Source: Chloroflexota bacterium
Lineage (GTDB): Bacteria; Chloroflexota; Anaerolineae; Anaerolineales; Villigracilaceae
Assembly: GCA_021823555.1 (NCBI GenBank)
Contig: JAKANW010000240.1
Location: 1 to 5,680 of the forward strand
Direction: 5' to 3'
Length of the DNA stretch: 5,680 nucleotides
The translations under genes were made by a program, and so were the position numbers. Shown here one piece after another: positions 1 through 5,680 of the stretch (positions are counted from its first letter, which is position 1; each line of letters begins with the position of its first letter). A model generated the notes under the pieces. It was not told the DNA's origin. It saw nothing but the letters and a program-made list of their open reading frames with translations, and ran no database searches.

Positions 1-260
1 GACTCCACAAATTCCGTTATCTCATCCGCAAAATAGGAAGCCAGGTCAAGGGCAAGCAGTTTGCCCGCGCCAAGCGCGTCAGCGTAGGAAAAGCCGCCAG
101 GAAGGACGAGCAGTTGAAAGTCCCGAAAGAGCGTTTTGCGAGACCGCAATTCATTGAGCGGCATACCAATCGGATCCGCATCGGCAAGGGTCAGCGCGTC
201 CATCACGTCAAAATCACGATTCGAGCCGTAGGCTTGGAGAACGAGAGCTTTTGGTTTCAT
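1..260 (-). CDS. purQ: PurQ, FGAM synthase glutaminase subunit (3' end outside window)
   Basis: PurQ is the class I glutamine amidotransferase subunit that hydrolyses glutamine and feeds ammonia to PurL for conversion of FGAR to FGAM in the cytoplasm. Read on the minus strand from ATG at 260-258, the first 86 codons begin MKPKALVLQAYGSNRD and contain LPGGFSYADALGAG at residues 53-66, the family's glycine-rich oxyanion-strand motif (usually GGFSYGD, here Ala replaces that Gly). The window ends before the catalytic Cys and the His/Glu pair, so activity cannot be judged. The start codon overlaps the purL stop in an ATGA, and no clear Shine-Dalgarno lies upstream, so translation is probably coupled to purL. 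The identification is from visible motifs and context; the alternative of another GATase is unlikely because of the purL link. Confidence 0.95.
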   Translation of the reverse strand, partial: MKPKALVLQAYGSNRDFDVMDALTLADADPIGMPLNELRSRKTLFRDFQLLVLPGGFSYADALGAGKLLALDLASYFADEITEFVE

Positions 261-3073
261 GGCTTATCAGAAGTGGAATTGAAAGCGCTGACGAGAGCCT
301 CGACAGGTATTCCAACGTCAGCAATTTTGAGCATGGGCTGCTTCGTGACCACACCAATTTGGGCGAATGGTAAATTTTCAAAGTATTGTTCAAAGGTCGG
401 CGCATCAGCTGGGACGACTTCAACAAGCAGGCAGCCATTGACTTCATTGAAGAGCGCGGTCGAGGGTAAATCCAGTTCCAGGCCGAGGCGACCACCGATA
501 CACATCTCTGCGGCAGCAACGGCAAGGCCTCCGTCGCTCAAGTCGTGAGATGATTTCACCAAACGATTTTGAATTGCCCGGTGCAATGCTTGATAAACCC
601 GTGGAGTGGATTGGGACACATCGGGGACAGTTTTTGGTTCTGATGCAAAATCACCGATTAGATAAAGAAGGTTGCCTGCCGCTTTCAAATCCATCGTGAC
701 TGCCATGTTGACATCGTGAATGAGGCCGATGGCCGAGACCAACAGCGTGGGCGGGATGGCATGACGCTGGCCGTCCGCGCCGAGATATTCGTTGTTGAGG
801 GAGTCCTTGCCACTGATGAATGGTGCGCCATAAAAAAGGGCCGCATCATGACAACCGCGGCAGGCTTCGACGAGAGAGCCGAGGGTTTCAGGGCGAAGCG
901 GATCGCCCCAACAGAAATTATCGAGGATGGCGATCCGTTCGGGATCTGCGCCGACGGCGACCGCATTGCGAACAGCCTCATCAATCACCGACCAAGCCAT
1001 TTTGTAGGCATCGCGCTGGCCGTATTCTGGATTGATCCCGTTCGAGAGTACGATACCTTTGACTCCTTTTGTGCCAATTGGTTTTATGACTGCCGCATCA
1101 GAGGGCGCATCGGCTTCAACACCCGTCAGCGGCTTAACTACTGTTCTGCCCTGCACTTCGTGATCGTAGACGCGGATGACCGCGGCCTTGCTGGCAATGT
1201 TTGGATGGGAGAGAAGTTTGAGAAGCGTGTCTTTGAGGGCGATATTTGATATTCGAGATTCGATGTTCGGCACATCGAAGATTGGCCGATCAATTTTTGC
1301 TTTTAGTTGTCGTTGTGGAATGCCGCCATGCAAGAATTCATTATCCAGGTCAAGCGCCACTTTATCGTTGTGTCTGACTACCAAGCGGCCAGAGCCGGTG
1401 AATTCTCCGATGTCGGTCAGTTCGGTATCGAAGGTGTCGCACAGTTCTTGCAGAGCAGACAGGCTTTTTGGCGGGACAGCCAATACCATCCGTTCCTGTG
1501 CTTCGGAGAGCCAGATTTCCCATGGAGCCAGGCCTGGGTATTTGAGCCTTACATTTGAAAGCTCAACATCTGCTCCGATGGCCGATGCCATTTCCCCAAC
1601 TGCGGAGGAAAGCCCGCCCGCGCCGCAATCGGTGACGTCATTGTAGAGTCCCATGTCGCGGGCACGCACGATGACGTCAATCAATCCCTTTTCGACGATC
1701 GGGTCGCCGATCTGCACGGAGGCACCAGAAACCTCGCCTGTTTGCGCGTCCATGGTCATCGAGGAGAAGGTCGCGCCGCGCAAGCCGTCGCGTCCCGTGC
1801 GCCCACCGAGCACGATCACGCGGTCTGCGACCTGAGGAGCTTTGTGATGTTTGCCTTTGGGGGCGATGCCCACGCATCCGCAAAAGACCAGAGGATTCGC
1901 AGTGTAACCTTCATCATAAAGGATCGCGCCATTGACTGTTGGAATGCCGATCTTGTTGCCATAATCCTGCACGCCAGCGACAACGCCCGATTGAACGCGA
2001 CGCGGGTGCAGGACGCCTTCAGGCAGGGACGCGGGATCAAGGTCCTGTGGGCCGAAGCAAAGGACATCCGTATTCGCTATCGGTTTTGCGCTGACCCCCA
2101 GCACATCGCGAATGACCCCGCCGACGCCTGTGTTCGCGCCTCCGAACGGCTCCACCGCTGACGGGTGGTTGTGCGTCTCGGCTTTGAAGGAAATCTCGAA
2201 TTCATCGTCAAAGTCAATGATGCCAGCGTTATCCACAAAAGCGGAGATGACCCAGGATGCGTTGATTTGGTCGGTGGCGGATTTGAGATAGGTTCTTATC
2301 AACGAATCAATTTGATATTCAGTCCCATTTGCATTTACATCAATCCTGGCTTTGAAGGTTTTGTGGACGCAATGCTCGCTCCAGGTTTGAGCAATGGACT
2401 CGAATTCCACATCTGTGGGATCGCGTCCTTCCCTGGTGAAATAATTTTGAATGACCCGCATCTCGGCCAGGTCCAATGCGGCGCGCCGCCCTTTGGAAAG
2501 CGCAAGCAACTCGTCATCATTCAAGCCGCGAATGAAAATGGTCTCCACCACACCGCTCGACTCTGTCTCCTGAGGAAAGGAAGGAATGATCTCGCCAACC
2601 GTCCAATGTTGGATGACATTGTTGGCAAGCAAACGCTGCGCCAGTTTTTCGGCAGTGGCTGAGTCCGCTCCTTCGATGATGTAGCGCATACCCGTTGCCG
2701 CGCGGCAGAGGCCATCCAGGCCAAGTTCGTATGCAGCGCGGACAATCTGCTCGGCAACAGGGTCAGTCACGCCGGGGTGGAAGGCAACCTCGATCATAAC
2801 GGTATCAGGCTTGAGGGCGGTCTGAGACACCCCCCTCGGGGACCTAACGGCAGGCAATTCCATCCAGGATGCGGATTGAGTCACAGGGTCCGTTAAAAGA
2901 CTGAGGGCCAACTGTTGACATGTGTCCTGTGACAGTTGACCCTCGATAAAGTAGAGGCTCTGGCGCTGGATGCGCCGGAGGTCGTTGAACCCCAGCGCGT
3001 GCGCGTCGGCCAAATAAATGTCGGCGCGCGGGTCTGGAAATTTAAATTGGACAACGAAACAGTACATTGACAT
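257..3073 (-). CDS. purL: PurS-PurL fusion, phosphoribosylformylglycinamidine synthase synthetase subunit
   Basis: The protein carries out ATP-dependent amidation of FGAR to FGAM, using ammonia from PurQ. From ATG at 3073 it is 938 residues, about 200 longer than small-type PurL (~740). The extra N-terminus holds two PurS-like stretches: residues ~3-75 (weaker) and ~92-163 (clearer, with FHPGVTDPVAEQIVRAAYELG and LLANNVI). PurL proper follows, with WSEHC (231-235), AETHNHPS (298-305), PFGGANTGVGG (309-319), DCGAGGLSSAVGEM (482-495), SGKDSLNNEY (754-763) and SHDLSDGGL (842-850); all signature motifs of both AIRS-like halves are intact. I chose 3073 because AGAGG sits seven bases upstream and the longer reading's TTG at 3130 lies inside the -35 box. 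ATG at 3067 is also possible. The stop overlaps purQ. A two-copy PurS module resembles the N-terminal domain of large-type PurL, where it replaces the separate PurS dimer (family knowledge); that no free PurS is needed here is inference. Confidence 0.96.
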   Translation of the reverse strand: MSMYCFVVQFKFPDPRADIYLADAHALGFNDLRRIQRQSLYFIEGQLSQDTCQQLALSLLTDPVTQSASWMELPAVRSPRGVSQTALKPDTVMIEVAFHPGVTDPVAEQIVRAAYELGLDGLCRAATGMRYIIEGADSATAEKLAQRLLANNVIQHWTVGEIIPSFPQETESSGVVETIFIRGLNDDELLALSKGRRAALDLAEMRVIQNYFTREGRDPTDVEFESIAQTWSEHCVHKTFKARIDVNANGTEYQIDSLIRTYLKSATDQINASWVISAFVDNAGIIDFDDEFEISFKAETHNHPSAVEPFGGANTGVGGVIRDVLGVSAKPIANTDVLCFGPQDLDPASLPEGVLHPRRVQSGVVAGVQDYGNKIGIPTVNGAILYDEGYTANPLVFCGCVGIAPKGKHHKAPQVADRVIVLGGRTGRDGLRGATFSSMTMDAQTGEVSGASVQIGDPIVEKGLIDVIVRARDMGLYNDVTDCGAGGLSSAVGEMASAIGADVELSNVRLKYPGLAPWEIWLSEAQERMVLAVPPKSLSALQELCDTFDTELTDIGEFTGSGRLVVRHNDKVALDLDNEFLHGGIPQRQLKAKIDRPIFDVPNIESRISNIALKDTLLKLLSHPNIASKAAVIRVYDHEVQGRTVVKPLTGVEADAPSDAAVIKPIGTKGVKGIVLSNGINPEYGQRDAYKMAWSVIDEAVRNAVAVGADPERIAILDNFCWGDPLRPETLGSLVEACRGCHDAALFYGAPFISGKDSLNNEYLGADGQRHAIPPTLLVSAIGLIHDVNMAVTMDLKAAGNLLYLIGDFASEPKTVPDVSQSTPRVYQALHRAIQNRLVKSSHDLSDGGLAVAAAEMCIGGRLGLELDLPSTALFNEVNGCLLVEVVPADAPTFEQYFENLPFAQIGVVTKQPMLKIADVGIPVEALVSAFNSTSDKP

Positions 3074-3080
3074 GACTTGG

Positions 3081-3087
3081 CCTCTGA
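3081..3087 (-). promoter_or_regulatory. Ribosome binding site of purL
   Basis: The minus strand reads TCAGAGG here, followed by seven bases and ATG at 3073. This AGAGG core is the only good Shine-Dalgarno near the beginning of the reading frame and decides the start in favour of 3073 over the TTG at 3130. Confidence 0.7.
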
Positions 3088-3101
3088 GAGATGTGCGGGT
3101 G

Positions 3102-3130
3102 ATTTTACTTCCGTAGACTTGTCTAGTCAA
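3102..3130 (-). promoter_or_regulatory. Sigma70-type promoter of the purL-purQ operon
   Basis: On the minus strand TTGACT (3130-3125) and TAAAAT (3107-3102) are separated by exactly 17 bases; each box matches five of six consensus positions. Transcription would start near 3095, giving a leader of only about 22 bases before the purL ATG, too short for a riboswitch. The -35 box lies inside an imperfect palindrome at 3117-3132, which could be an operator. Seen directly in the sequence; promoter activity is inferred. Confidence 0.75.
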
Positions 3131-3617: not shown

Positions 3618-3840
3618 ATGAATTTATCCTATCACTACCCCCCCCTACATCTGGCCGATGCTGGCTTCGGCTGTCTTTGCAGCGATCCTGGGCATCTATT
3701 GCTGGCGGCACCGCACCATGCCTGGCGCACTGACGTTCATGTTTAGCTACCTGTTGGCCGGGTTTGCGTCTGTTGGATTGGCCATGACCTGCCTCGTTGT
3801 AGAAAGTGATACAAAGCTCTTCTAGTTCAGACTTGAACAC
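3618..3840 (+). pseudogene. Remnant of a histidine kinase N-terminal 7TM domain (two lesions)
   Basis: Starting at ATG 3618 the frame reads MNLSYHYPP, then goes wrong. If one C is removed from the eight-C run at 3638-3645, it continues PPYIWPMLASAVFAAILG and then ALTFMFSYLLAGFASVG, two membrane helices ending ESDTKLF at a TAG (3823-3825), after which FRLEH still follows in frame. This is the pattern of the N-terminal 7TM sensor region of LytS-like/HisKA_7TM kinases, which start with Y-x-Y-x-P-Y-I-W-P and have KLFW after the second or third helix, so the TAG most likely replaces TGG (Trp). Homology stops at ~3840, right before the Crp/Fnr gene; the remaining helices, kinase core and any output domain are absent. 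The family call rests on motif recognition. Either lesion could be a sequencing error, but the missing remainder could not be explained that way. Confidence 0.7.
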
Positions 3841-3848
3841 AGGTTCTT

Positions 3849-4547
3849 ATGCTAAATGCTGATCAACTTCGCAAATATCCACTCTTCTCAGGCCTCAGCG
3901 ATGATGAATTAGCCAAACTGGCGCCCTGTCTGACAAAACGCCAATATGCCAAGGGCGCTTATCTTTTCCATCCCGGCTCCCCGGTTTTAAATATGTACGT
4001 GGTCGAATCGGGGCTGGTGCGCGCCTTCTTCACTAATTCGCACGGCGAGGAGTTCATGCTGGACCTGATTGGCCCGCGCTCCGCGGTTGGACTGCCGCTC
4101 ATGCGTGAAGATCAAACCCGCATGCTGGGCGCTTCTGCCGTGACGCCATTGGTCTCGCTGGTCATGGCGCAGCAGGATCTGATCCGTTTCTCGCAACGCT
4201 CTCCCCAATTGATGCGCAATGTTTCCGATCTGGTTCATGGGTCGATGGAAAAACTCCTGATCCATATTCGTTCGTTAGTCACGCTCGGTGTAAATGGTCG
4301 TCTGGCAGGCGTTTTTCTATATCTAAGCCGGAGCGATGGAGATTTGAACGTCAAGACCGAAATTGACCTGCCGTTGAGTCAAACGGATTTAGCCAATTGG
4401 ATAGGCGCCAGCCGCGGGCACTTGAACCGGGCCATCAGCCACCTGGAGGAATCCGGTTTGATCTGCGTGCAGGAGCATAAGCTTGTCATCCTCGACCGGC
4501 CGGGTCTGGAACGCGCCTCGGAGGAACTGCTTTCCGAAACCATGTAA
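3849..4547 (+). CDS. Crp/Fnr-family transcriptional regulator
   Basis: This 232-residue cytoplasmic DNA-binding protein has the usual length and layout of the family: an N-terminal cyclic-nucleotide-binding-type beta-barrel (~10-125, beginning LRKYPLFSGLSDDEL), a long dimerisation helix (~120-150) and a winged helix-turn-helix (~150-222) with the recognition helix in ASRGHLNRAISHLEESGLI. The phosphate-binding cassette GE-x-x-x-R-[ST]-A of true cAMP receptors is not seen at the corresponding place (IGPRSAVGLPLM), and only two cysteines (27, 206) are present, too few for an Fnr [4Fe-4S] cluster, so the signal is unknown. ATG 3849 follows AGG with five bases between, a weak ribosome site. The gene begins nine bases after the end of kinase homology and lies upstream of the NHLP-clan gene, whose promoter region carries a Crp-like site; control of that gene is inference. 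Confidence 0.95.
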   Translation: MLNADQLRKYPLFSGLSDDELAKLAPCLTKRQYAKGAYLFHPGSPVLNMYVVESGLVRAFFTNSHGEEFMLDLIGPRSAVGLPLMREDQTRMLGASAVTPLVSLVMAQQDLIRFSQRSPQLMRNVSDLVHGSMEKLLIHIRSLVTLGVNGRLAGVFLYLSRSDGDLNVKTEIDLPLSQTDLANWIGASRGHLNRAISHLEESGLICVQEHKLVILDRPGLERASEELLSETM

Positions 4548-4565
4548 GAAATCACACAAGTTTTC

Positions 4566-4601: not shown

Positions 4602-4607
4602 TAGAAT
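4602..4607 (+). promoter_or_regulatory. -10 box of the NHLP-clan gene
   Basis: TAGAAT matches five of six positions of TATAAT. No -35 hexamer is found 16-18 bases upstream, as expected for a promoter that needs an activator at the Crp-like site. A start near 4614 would give a leader of about 50 bases. Confidence 0.45.
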
Positions 4608-4664: not shown

Positions 4665-4946
4665 ATGTCGAATCGAGCTGTTGAATCCATAATGGGCAGG
4701 CTCATGCTGGACGCTGAGTTCAGCCGCGCACTGTTGGCCTTCCCCGACCAAACGCTGGAAGATTTTGATCTTACCGAGGCGGAAAAAGACATCTTGAAGA
4801 GAATCGATAGCGAAACGCTGGATTTCCTGATAATGACCCTGGCGGAACGCATACCGACTCTGGCTAAACGCTATGTAGCCTTCGAGAAGGGTCTCGATCA
4901 GGGTGAAACTGGCCTTGCCAATGAAATAACTTCACAAGGAGATTGA
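4665..4946 (+). CDS. NHLP-clan (Os1348/Franean1_4349-like) RiPP-precursor-type small protein
   Basis: A 93-residue acidic, cysteine-free protein. Residues 5-65 follow the pattern of the Os1348/Franean1_4349 group of nitrile-hydratase-leader-like peptides: A-V-E-x-I-x-G-R-L (5-13), D-x-E-F-x-x-A-L-L near 16-24, then P-D-x-x-L, D-L-T-E-x-E-K and I-D-x-E-T-L-D, ending in a helix closed by ERIP. Such proteins are considered leader-bearing precursors of ribosomally made, modified peptides. The ~30 residues after that would be the core or a C-terminal extension (GLDQGETGLANEITSQGD at the end); they have no Cys and only a few Ser/Thr. The ribosome site AAGG is six bases before ATG 4665. The next gene starts one base after the stop, an operon arrangement. 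No maturase, peptidase or transporter is visible, so the RiPP role is inferred from the leader only. Confidence 0.78.
   Translation: MSNRAVESIMGRLMLDAEFSRALLAFPDQTLEDFDLTEAEKDILKRIDSETLDFLIMTLAERIPTLAKRYVAFEKGLDQGETGLANEITSQGD
4936..4941 (+). promoter_or_regulatory. Strong ribosome binding site for the gene at 4948
   Basis: AAGGAG lies six bases before ATG 4948, inside the last codons of the NHLP-clan gene. This strong site, plus the one-base gap between stop and start, shows that the downstream start is genuine although the rest of that gene is missing. Confidence 0.75.
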
Positions 4947-4947
4947 A

Positions 4948-5142
4948 ATGAAAACGAAATTGAATTTCTTGATGATTCTCGCCCTGCTGGTGATGATGAT
5001 GGGCGGCAGGTTGTACTCGCTGTTGATCTTGACCAACATGCGCCTCAACGCCGGGGCGCAAACTTCCCATCCCATTTCGGTGTATTCCGAGCCTGGCACG
5101 GGTTCAATTTGTCCCTGGGTGCTGATGAGATTACGCGAGTAA
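4948..5142 (+). pseudogene. Truncated gene with signal-peptide/membrane N-terminus, fused to antisense GH1 sequence
   Basis: The start is well supported by AAGGAG and the one-base distance to the preceding gene. The first ~14-20 residues, MKTKLNFLMILALLVMMMGG, have a basic n-region and a hydrophobic core, as in a signal peptide or a single membrane anchor. From about 4989 onward the DNA is the opposite strand of a GH1 glucosidase gene, so residues after ~14 up to the stop at 5142 are antisense read-through and not native protein. The original product cannot be identified; by position it would be a secreted or membrane protein co-expressed with the NHLP-clan peptide, for example an immunity, export or processing partner (speculation). 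Confidence 0.6.
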
Positions 5143-5483
5143 AAATTGACTCCGAGATAATCCAGCCTTTGCGCGATGAGCGCCATGTCCCCGTCTTTGA
5201 TCTTCGGCATACTCTCGCCAGCCATTTCATAGGTGCCTGCCGGATAATGCCCTTTGAAGATTGGATCAAGGAAGAGAGTTTCACTTCTTTCAAAAGCAAG
5301 GTTTGCGGCGGCAACATCTTCGGGCGAATCGGATGCCGCGTCCTGCATCCAAAGATTCAAAACAATGCCAACTTGTAAATTCGGATTGACCGCGCGGATG
5401 GCCTGCAAAGCGAGACCATGCGCGGCGAGCAGATTGTGCCCCACTTGAAATGCCGCCTTCGCATCCTGCCGACCCGGGGCATG
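4989..5483 (-). pseudogene. Internal fragment of a GH1 beta-glucosidase gene, truncated at both ends
   Basis: Read on the minus strand from ~5483 to ~4989, about 165 codons follow family 1 glycoside hydrolases: HAPGRQDAKAAFQVGHNLL, LAAHGLALQAIRAVNP, VGIVLNLW, SDSPEDVAAANLA, FLDPIFKGHYPAG, KIKDGDMALIAQRLDYLG, VNFYSR, YTEMGWEV and NLPPIIIT. The acid/base Asn-Glu-Pro of the family lies upstream of this stretch, and the nucleophile of the I-T-E-N-G motif would be the very next residue; here Ser follows Thr, then unrelated sequence. The piece therefore contains neither catalytic Glu and cannot be active. No stop interrupts it, so the fragment is fresh, whether from assembly joining or a recent rearrangement. 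The left boundary is certain within a few codons, the right one within about 25 bases. Confidence 0.88.
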
Positions 5484-5680
5484 GCGAGAATCCGCTCCTC
5501 TCCATGGGGAGCCTGCCCCAGGGCCTCGGTCAGGTCGCCTCCCGCCTGATGCCTCTTTACATGACTGCCGTCCCTCCAGAGACGGCTTGCCGAAACATCG
5601 TAGATATCCCCCCGGTAGGCCAGATAGGCCGGTCTTCCCTCCCGGCCATCGAAGCCGGCAAGCGCTTCCGCCGTCAGCTC
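5357..5680 (-). CDS. Cytochrome b5-like heme-binding domain protein (N-terminus outside window, C-terminus fused to GH1 DNA)
   Basis: The minus-strand frame entering at 5680 is open for 107 codons to TGA at 5359-5357. Residues 1-73 of this partial read match small prokaryotic cytochrome b5-like domains: LAGFDGREGRPAYLAYRGDI, YDVSASRLWRDGSHVKRHQA, GGDLTEALGQAPHGEERILA and then PRVGRM, the usual domain end. His40 or His44 and His59 (window numbering) are the likely axial heme ligands. Such domains carry electrons or bind heme/steroids, alone or attached to membrane or redox proteins; the missing N-terminus prevents a choice. From about 5480-5460 onward the frame runs through GH1 DNA in the wrong frame, so the last ~35 residues are not native. 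G+C is 65% over 5481-5680, higher than the rest of the window. The gene is easily missed because it has no start inside the window. Confidence 0.82.
   Translation of the reverse strand, partial: ELTAEALAGFDGREGRPAYLAYRGDIYDVSASRLWRDGSHVKRHQAGGDLTEALGQAPHGEERILAMPRVGRMRRRHFKWGTICSPRMVSLCRPSARSIRIYKLALF

Follow-up and report, generated by a model that had tools for sequence, protein, structure and literature searches.

A putative Crp-regulated cassette joining a nearly core-less Os1348-family protein to surface proteins in Anaerolineales

The closest described counterpart of the small protein considered here is Os1348 of Pseudomonas sp. Os17 (NF038399, 6lk7), with which it has the domain family and a predicted fold in common. 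The Os17 protein is reported to be small and without TOMM-precursor motifs, and its gene to be followed by genes for an acetyltransferase, a peptidase-like protein and a SagB-type dehydrogenase (PMC7726476); this context differs from that of our locus, with its upstream Crp gene and downstream surface protein. NHLP/TOMM precursors are distant clan kin, and 8tb1 is a weak match of our protein in both sequence and fold. Haft 2010 (PMC2887384) names as precursor features Gly-Gly and, towards the C-terminus, an abundance of heterocyclizable residues, whereas in the group described below Gly-Gly occurs in 3 of 84 aligned rows and Cys is nearly absent. Clusters with the daptide HExxH protease (NF041824) offer a further comparison: related M50-type proteins adjoin sister clades of Os1348 proteins with 141 and 143 bits, below the cut-off of 300, and among the five genomes of our clade the protease part is unmatched in three.

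In public records, some family members are named "Franean1_4349 family RiPP" and "Os1348 family NHLP clan protein". A search of the open-licence literature found no paper on the NHLP clan, the Os1348 family or the Franean1_4349 family by name, and nothing on sortase/adhesin proteins of Anaerolineales or, in this context, on daptides; PF14407 occurs in PMC8939145, and for nitrile hydratase leader peptides in Chloroflexi a lantibiotic paper was the one match.

We analysed 5,680 nt of the forward strand of contig JAKANW010000240.1 (Chloroflexota bacterium GCA_021823555.1, Villigracilaceae); this whole stretch is referred to as the window. From the letters alone it had been predicted that a Crp/Fnr regulator and a Crp-like site precede a possible RiPP precursor gene of the NHLP clan, and that a membrane or secreted gene is translationally linked to the latter. 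As shown in Table 1, the regulator gene lies upstream, and the 93-aa open reading frame, the AAGGAG and an ATG one base after the stop codon are all present in the sequence.

Table 1. Positions of features in the window
Feature	Positions	Strand	Basis or remark
Start of PurQ-like gene, after PurL	3-260		by eye
PurL	257-3130	-	PurS domain near N-terminus, single protein; ~75% identity to nearest Anaerolineales-type proteins
HisKA_7TM-like gene remnant	3618-3825		PF16927 22.6 bits, under 28.6 cut-off; apparently broken near C run ~3640 (by eye); ends early
Crp/Fnr-family regulator, 232 aa	3849-4547	+	Pfam PF13545 and PF00027
Distal Crp-like dyad	4542-4559	+	overlaps regulator gene end; 23 bp upstream of proximal dyad
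Proximal Crp-like dyad CTGTAACATTTCGCACAA	4565-4582	+	best matrix site in window, 12.8 bits; aligned in relatives
-10-like box TAGAAT	4602-4607	+	28 nt after dyad centre
Os1348-family NHLP-clan protein, 93 aa	4665-4946	+	NF038399 51.4 bits, cut-off 40
AAGGAG ribosome-binding site within 3' end of Os1348 ORF	4936-4941	+	sequence
True start of downstream secreted-protein gene	4948-4988	+	~13 codons, hydrophobic after KxK
GH1-like piece	4989-5055	-	60% DNA identity to same G003 gene as next piece (40/67 columns)
Foreign GH1 beta-glucosidase piece	5056-5485	-	97.7% DNA identity to genome G003 (420/430 columns)
Cyt-b5 domain piece, open at window end	5486-5680	-	PF00173 26.9 bits, cut-off 23.7

The Os1348-family protein and its relatives

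Membership in the NHLP clan, for which a search against the NCBIfam models of the clan had been suggested as a check, was borne out: NF038399 matches above its cut-off (Table 1), and 6lk7 is the closest solved structure both by sequence (2.5e-7) and by fold. The description of the protein as Os1348/Franean1_4349-like holds for its first half; the score against PF14407 Franean1_4349 (29.5 bits) stays under the gathering cut-off of 48, although PF14407.12 is listed as precomputed for this protein in the protein table. An AlphaFold2 model made on 84 aligned rows reached a mean pLDDT of 77.7 and a pTM of 0.56. A Foldseek search with this model gave the Os1348 crystal structure as the top match with a probability of 0.99 but an E value of 0.27, and no structure at E <= 0.001; borosin proteins and then, weakly, a proteusin precursor were its further neighbours.

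To describe the C-terminal part of the family, we used the same 84 rows (81 distinct), taking as the tail everything after residue 63 and counting Gly-Gly from residue 51 onwards. The tails have a median length of 10 residues and contain 0.3% Cys, 9.7% Ser, 4.2% Thr and about 20% Lys plus Arg. The window protein has a tail of 30 residues with neither Cys nor Gly-Gly. Thus neither of the two features of an NHLP-type precursor, a C-terminal core rich in Cys, Ser and Thr and a Gly-Gly cleavage motif in front of it, was found in these proteins as a group, and comparison of the rows shows that Os1348 proteins of the window clade have almost no recognisable core peptide.

Relatives were reached through family and profile searches with PurL as an anchor, as the window protein, used as a lone query against 5.8 billion proteins, returned only itself, and a single-sequence scan of genome contigs gave no relative. 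In the order of the window, the Os1348 model matched in 185 of 400 genomes at E <= 0.001, with 24 above the cut-off. Within one family of 152 genomes the window protein alone matches in 8, and the 84-row profile scores above 80 bits in 4 (G348 twice, G317, G056, G307 twice); a second family contributed one genome of 147 with a member above 80 bits (G247). When the first alignment served as the query of a protein search, 90 proteins, mostly of 66-105 aa, were collected. No Os1348 relatives were found in the viral contigs searched, and no additional member in the 10 genomes of the order of G636. In a tree of 37 Os1348 domains, for which the tool warned of few columns, the window falls with the relatives into a clade of nine rows (support 97/92) that also takes in a long-branch outsider, G697b, adjoining the window row. 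All locus comparisons below refer to a small sample from one order: six loci of five genomes (G056, G317, G348, G307 C46, G307 C82 and G247, with G056, G317 and G247 being draft genomes), or seven loci with the window.

Regulator and tandem operator

Six of the seven loci (the window, G056, G317, G348 and both G307 loci) have an upstream Crp/Fnr gene in the same orientation. At the remaining one, G247, a decayed Crp gene was found, with frame fragments that retain the same recognition helix and the C-terminus. The intergenic regions of the loci align on repeats of CTGTNAC-N4-GNNACAG. For scoring, we built a matrix from 11 sites of the six other loci with the window held out; the training sites themselves score 19-26 bits. 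The Crp-like site proposed in the original prediction is supported by this matrix, which ranks it first among the single sites of the window (Table 1), and its score was equalled in 10 of 200 first-order Markov resamples, while the distal dyad taken alone is weak (7.2 bits). As a tandem with 23-bp spacing the two sites reach a score of 20.0 vs. 6.6 for the next pair, which none of the 200 resamples attained. A second dyad 23 bp upstream is present at six of the seven loci, namely the window and five relatives; G307 C82 has one dyad only. When the tandem pattern was searched with up to three mismatches, it found an Os1348 promoter in all five genomes; the other matches were the lipoprotein site of G348 and, in another part of G247, a single weak site, and the control gave a single match. 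By manual count, the tandem of the window itself exceeds the three mismatches allowed in this search.

The distance from the dyad centre to the -10-like box is 28-30 nt at all seven loci and 28 or 29 nt at six of them, a spacing expected by chance in 7% of cases per locus; in G307 C46 and in G247 the box agrees at only four of six positions. A second operator in G348, located before a surface lipoprotein gene, has its dyad centre 29 nt before a -10-like box. Spacing of this kind is the geometry of a class II activator. As in CRP/FNR class II promoters, the dyad of the window is centred about 41 nt upstream of the start of transcription, the start being inferred from the box. It differs from these promoters in being a local and tandem system with mostly TGTAAC sites, in the altered recognition helix of its regulator, and in the replacement of two of the three cAMP-contact positions inspected.

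These positions are the Glu, Ser and Arg of an aligned signature, which we take to be the cAMP-contact residues by their roles in E. coli CRP. The regulators of the window, of G056 and of four relatives in the alignment carry Leu or Thr in place of the pocket Glu, and Met, Val, Pro or Leu in place of the Ser; every Crp compared, outgroups included, retains the Arg. The outgroup Crps of G522, G564 and G636 retain GE(L/I)...PRSAGA. The pocket Glu and Ser that mark a cAMP-responsive CRP are thus lacking in the regulators of the window group.

The recognition helix reads SRGHLNRAI in the window and SRGxxNR throughout its group vs. (S/T)RE-xVN in the outgroup Crps. The operators of the group are mostly TGTAAC, with TGTGAC, TGTACC and TGTCAC as exceptions occurring once each. 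The base pair by which TGTAAC and TGTGAC differ is the one touched by the Glu of SRE in E. coli CRP, so a joint change of helix and operator may have taken place. The correspondence between the two groups is partial, since the group has a TGTGAC of its own, at the distal site of G056, and since inspection of G564 and G636 revealed no clear TGTGAC dyad; clear TGTGAC sites are present in the outgroups G522 and G223.

Downstream genes and sister clades

The right part of the window is best read as a chimera in which pieces of at least two organisms were put together during assembly. The minus-strand GH1 piece, nearly identical to a gene of G003 (Table 1), aligns only with a mid-family portion (positions 174-344 of 427), whereas PurL of the window and G003 have only 74% identity. 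The warning that the window is scrambled where partner genes should appear therefore proved apt, with GH1 and Cyt-b5 pieces from about 4989 onwards. As antisense GH1 sequence begins inside the 64-aa open reading frame that follows the Os1348 gene, this frame was rejected as a small membrane protein. The junction at ~4988/4989 was placed by the GH1 alignment, and about MKTKLNFLMILAL is all that is left of the downstream gene; its ATG agrees in position with the surface-protein starts of the relatives, and its signal-peptide character is deduced mainly from them. Of the proposed linked membrane or secreted gene, the window frame itself thus turned out to be mostly an artefact, but a secreted gene does occur at five of the six relatives.

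At these five loci the gene downstream of Os1348 encodes a secreted surface protein, the signal sequences being judged by eye, and four of the products are giants of 1540-2871 aa. That of G056 (2871 aa) has DUF285, fn3 and a C-terminal sortase domain; that of G317 (1613 aa) a DUF5122 propeller and Ig-like domains; that of G307 C82 (at least 1708 aa, the gene being cut by the contig end) DUF285; and that of G247 (1540 aa) choice-of-anchor Q, Flg_new and a C-terminal sortase domain. There is no Pfam domain that all four share. The gaps between the Os1348 stop and the giant genes are 32, 5, -4 and 68 nt vs. 1 nt in the window, and G317 carries ACAAGGAG at the position equivalent to the AAGGAG of the window. 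The fifth protein, a 624-aa FecR/Ig-like lipoprotein of G348, is encoded at a distance of 330 nt from the second Os1348 gene, behind an operator of its own, and is therefore not regarded as coupled; a CHASE2-cyclase gene follows, and then one for an M50-type protein that has a cNMP domain and a PqqD match under the cut-off. Neither of the refuting outcomes named in the original prediction, a lack of NHLP-clan matches or unrelated genes after the homologues, was observed, with a reservation for G307 C46, where regulator, operator and Os1348 protein are present and no secreted gene comes next. Separately, a second surface protein (1646 aa, C-terminal sortase domain) is encoded just upstream of the G056 Crp gene (L135 340-5280).

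We recognised no maturation enzyme in the fetched stretch of five of the six relatives, mostly by eye, with the G307 C82 stretch ending inside the surface gene and the window being cut; in G348 the M50-type gene further down is compatible with peptide processing. The M50-type protein was also considered as a hidden maturase acting in trans. Among 17 genomes searched, 15 matched, of which G348 and G307 did so over the whole length and the other 13 only from residue 838 on, in the cyclic-nucleotide-type part; the two genomes with no match were G247 and G009. The protease part found no match in G056, G317 and G247 at E <= 1e-10.

Other Os1348 clades of the phylum adjoin an M50-type protein and a 70-aa Cys-rich protein, so RiPP systems may still be present within the wider family. 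Some sister domains are fused to long repetitive tails: L181 (4831-5628) with VPAIDRGGEELTG units, L183 (5326-6279) rich in Gly and Ala, L217 (5250-5765) rich in Ala, and L218 (7408-8574), a protein of 388 aa. These four are possible repeat-core precursors, and the fused genes of L181, L217 and L218 lie near an M50-type gene. A Cys/His-rich protein of the MNCWHC..AHG.CRFCGRAVC type, 70 aa long (92 in L181), recurs near M50-type and Os1348 genes (L182 1637-1849; also L144, L181, L218, L221, L223 and L225); it has no NCBIfam match, and C5HCH is below the cut-off.

In 20 further loci, a Crp gene lies upstream in three (L217, L218, L220), a cyclase-seed match close by in seven and an M50-type gene close by in seven, and six have none of the seed families among the genes listed. 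In a phylum-wide sample, a small stand-alone Os1348 gene directly follows a cyclase-seed match on the same strand at all 14 loci fetched (L292-L305), out of 18 genomes with matches among 281 searched. The three cyclase-seed-matching proteins that were scanned, with L292 representing the 14 loci, showed cyclase, AAA and TPR domains. At their C-termini, the Os1348 proteins of L292-L305 carry motifs resembling (L/I)(S/T)Kxx(G)xG(F/L). Pairing with Crp genes here and with cyclase genes there suggests a part in signalling for core-less Os1348 proteins.

Interpretation of the locus

Gene order, the operator with its -10 spacing, the lack of a core and the kind of gene downstream are all shown by comparison of the loci, and as far as such comparison reaches the cassette is real and conserved. 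We consider it probable that the window holds the left part of a cassette composed of a Crp regulator, a tandem operator and class II promoter, a core-less Os1348 protein and a surface protein, with the Os1348 protein belonging to the switch. A leader-like protein without a core, encoded between its own switch and a surface gene, is more readily understood as a helper or regulator than as an antibiotic precursor. The regulator, with its partly changed cAMP-contact residues, would bind both dyads (at about -41 and -64) and turn on the transcript. The Os1348 protein would be made first as a folded, helical and probably dimeric product that remains in the cell as a partner; its cutting and maturation into a peptide would not be expected. 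It would most likely feed back on the regulator and so tune the expression of the surface protein, the translationally coupled, secreted downstream member of the cassette. The next option would be a cytoplasmic partner of that coupled protein.

The RiPP precursor with new maturase partners that was originally proposed finds no support in this clade, in which tails are almost core-less and a surface protein comes next in five of six relatives. It could still be rescued as a leader with a short core, the enzymes being encoded elsewhere and the surface protein an unrelated operon partner. Clan membership points that way, as do the fold neighbours (Os1348, borosin and, weakly, proteusin precursors), the M50-type proteins resembling daptide_HExxH below the cut-off beside sister clades, and the long repetitive tails of some sister proteins. 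Short tails poor in Cys and Gly-Gly, the unmatched M50 part in G056, G317 and G247 and the recurrent surface genes argue against it, and we hold such a precursor to be unlikely.

That the Os1348 protein is a small chaperone for export or assembly, which binds the surface protein during synthesis or else at its C-terminal part, would fit both the tight coupling (1, 5, -4 and 32 nt) and the very large size of the exported partners. Yet the four giants have no Pfam domain in common, sister Os1348 genes are paired with cyclase genes, and G307 C46 manages without a surface gene, which leaves an export helper rather unlikely. The same G307 C46 locus, together with the differing kinds of surface protein, could be taken to mean that a Crp-Os1348 unit merely happens to lie beside surface genes with no functional link; with a secreted surface gene next in five of six relatives and a second operator before the surface lipoprotein of G348, chance adjacency is very unlikely.

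Beyond this locus, we tentatively propose, with low confidence, that core-less NHLP-clan proteins of Chloroflexota are partners of switches and not peptide precursors, the switches being Crps that have moved past cAMP sensing in the order of the window and class III cyclases elsewhere. The switch of the window clade would then govern giant surface proteins, some of them with a sortase domain of their own. The small size of operator, regulator and partner makes them suitable for in vitro work. If the whole clade consists of regulatory or assembly partners of surface proteins, RiPP counts from genome mining would be too high, and, if true, the cassette would open to testing a new mode of control of giant surface proteins in Chloroflexota.
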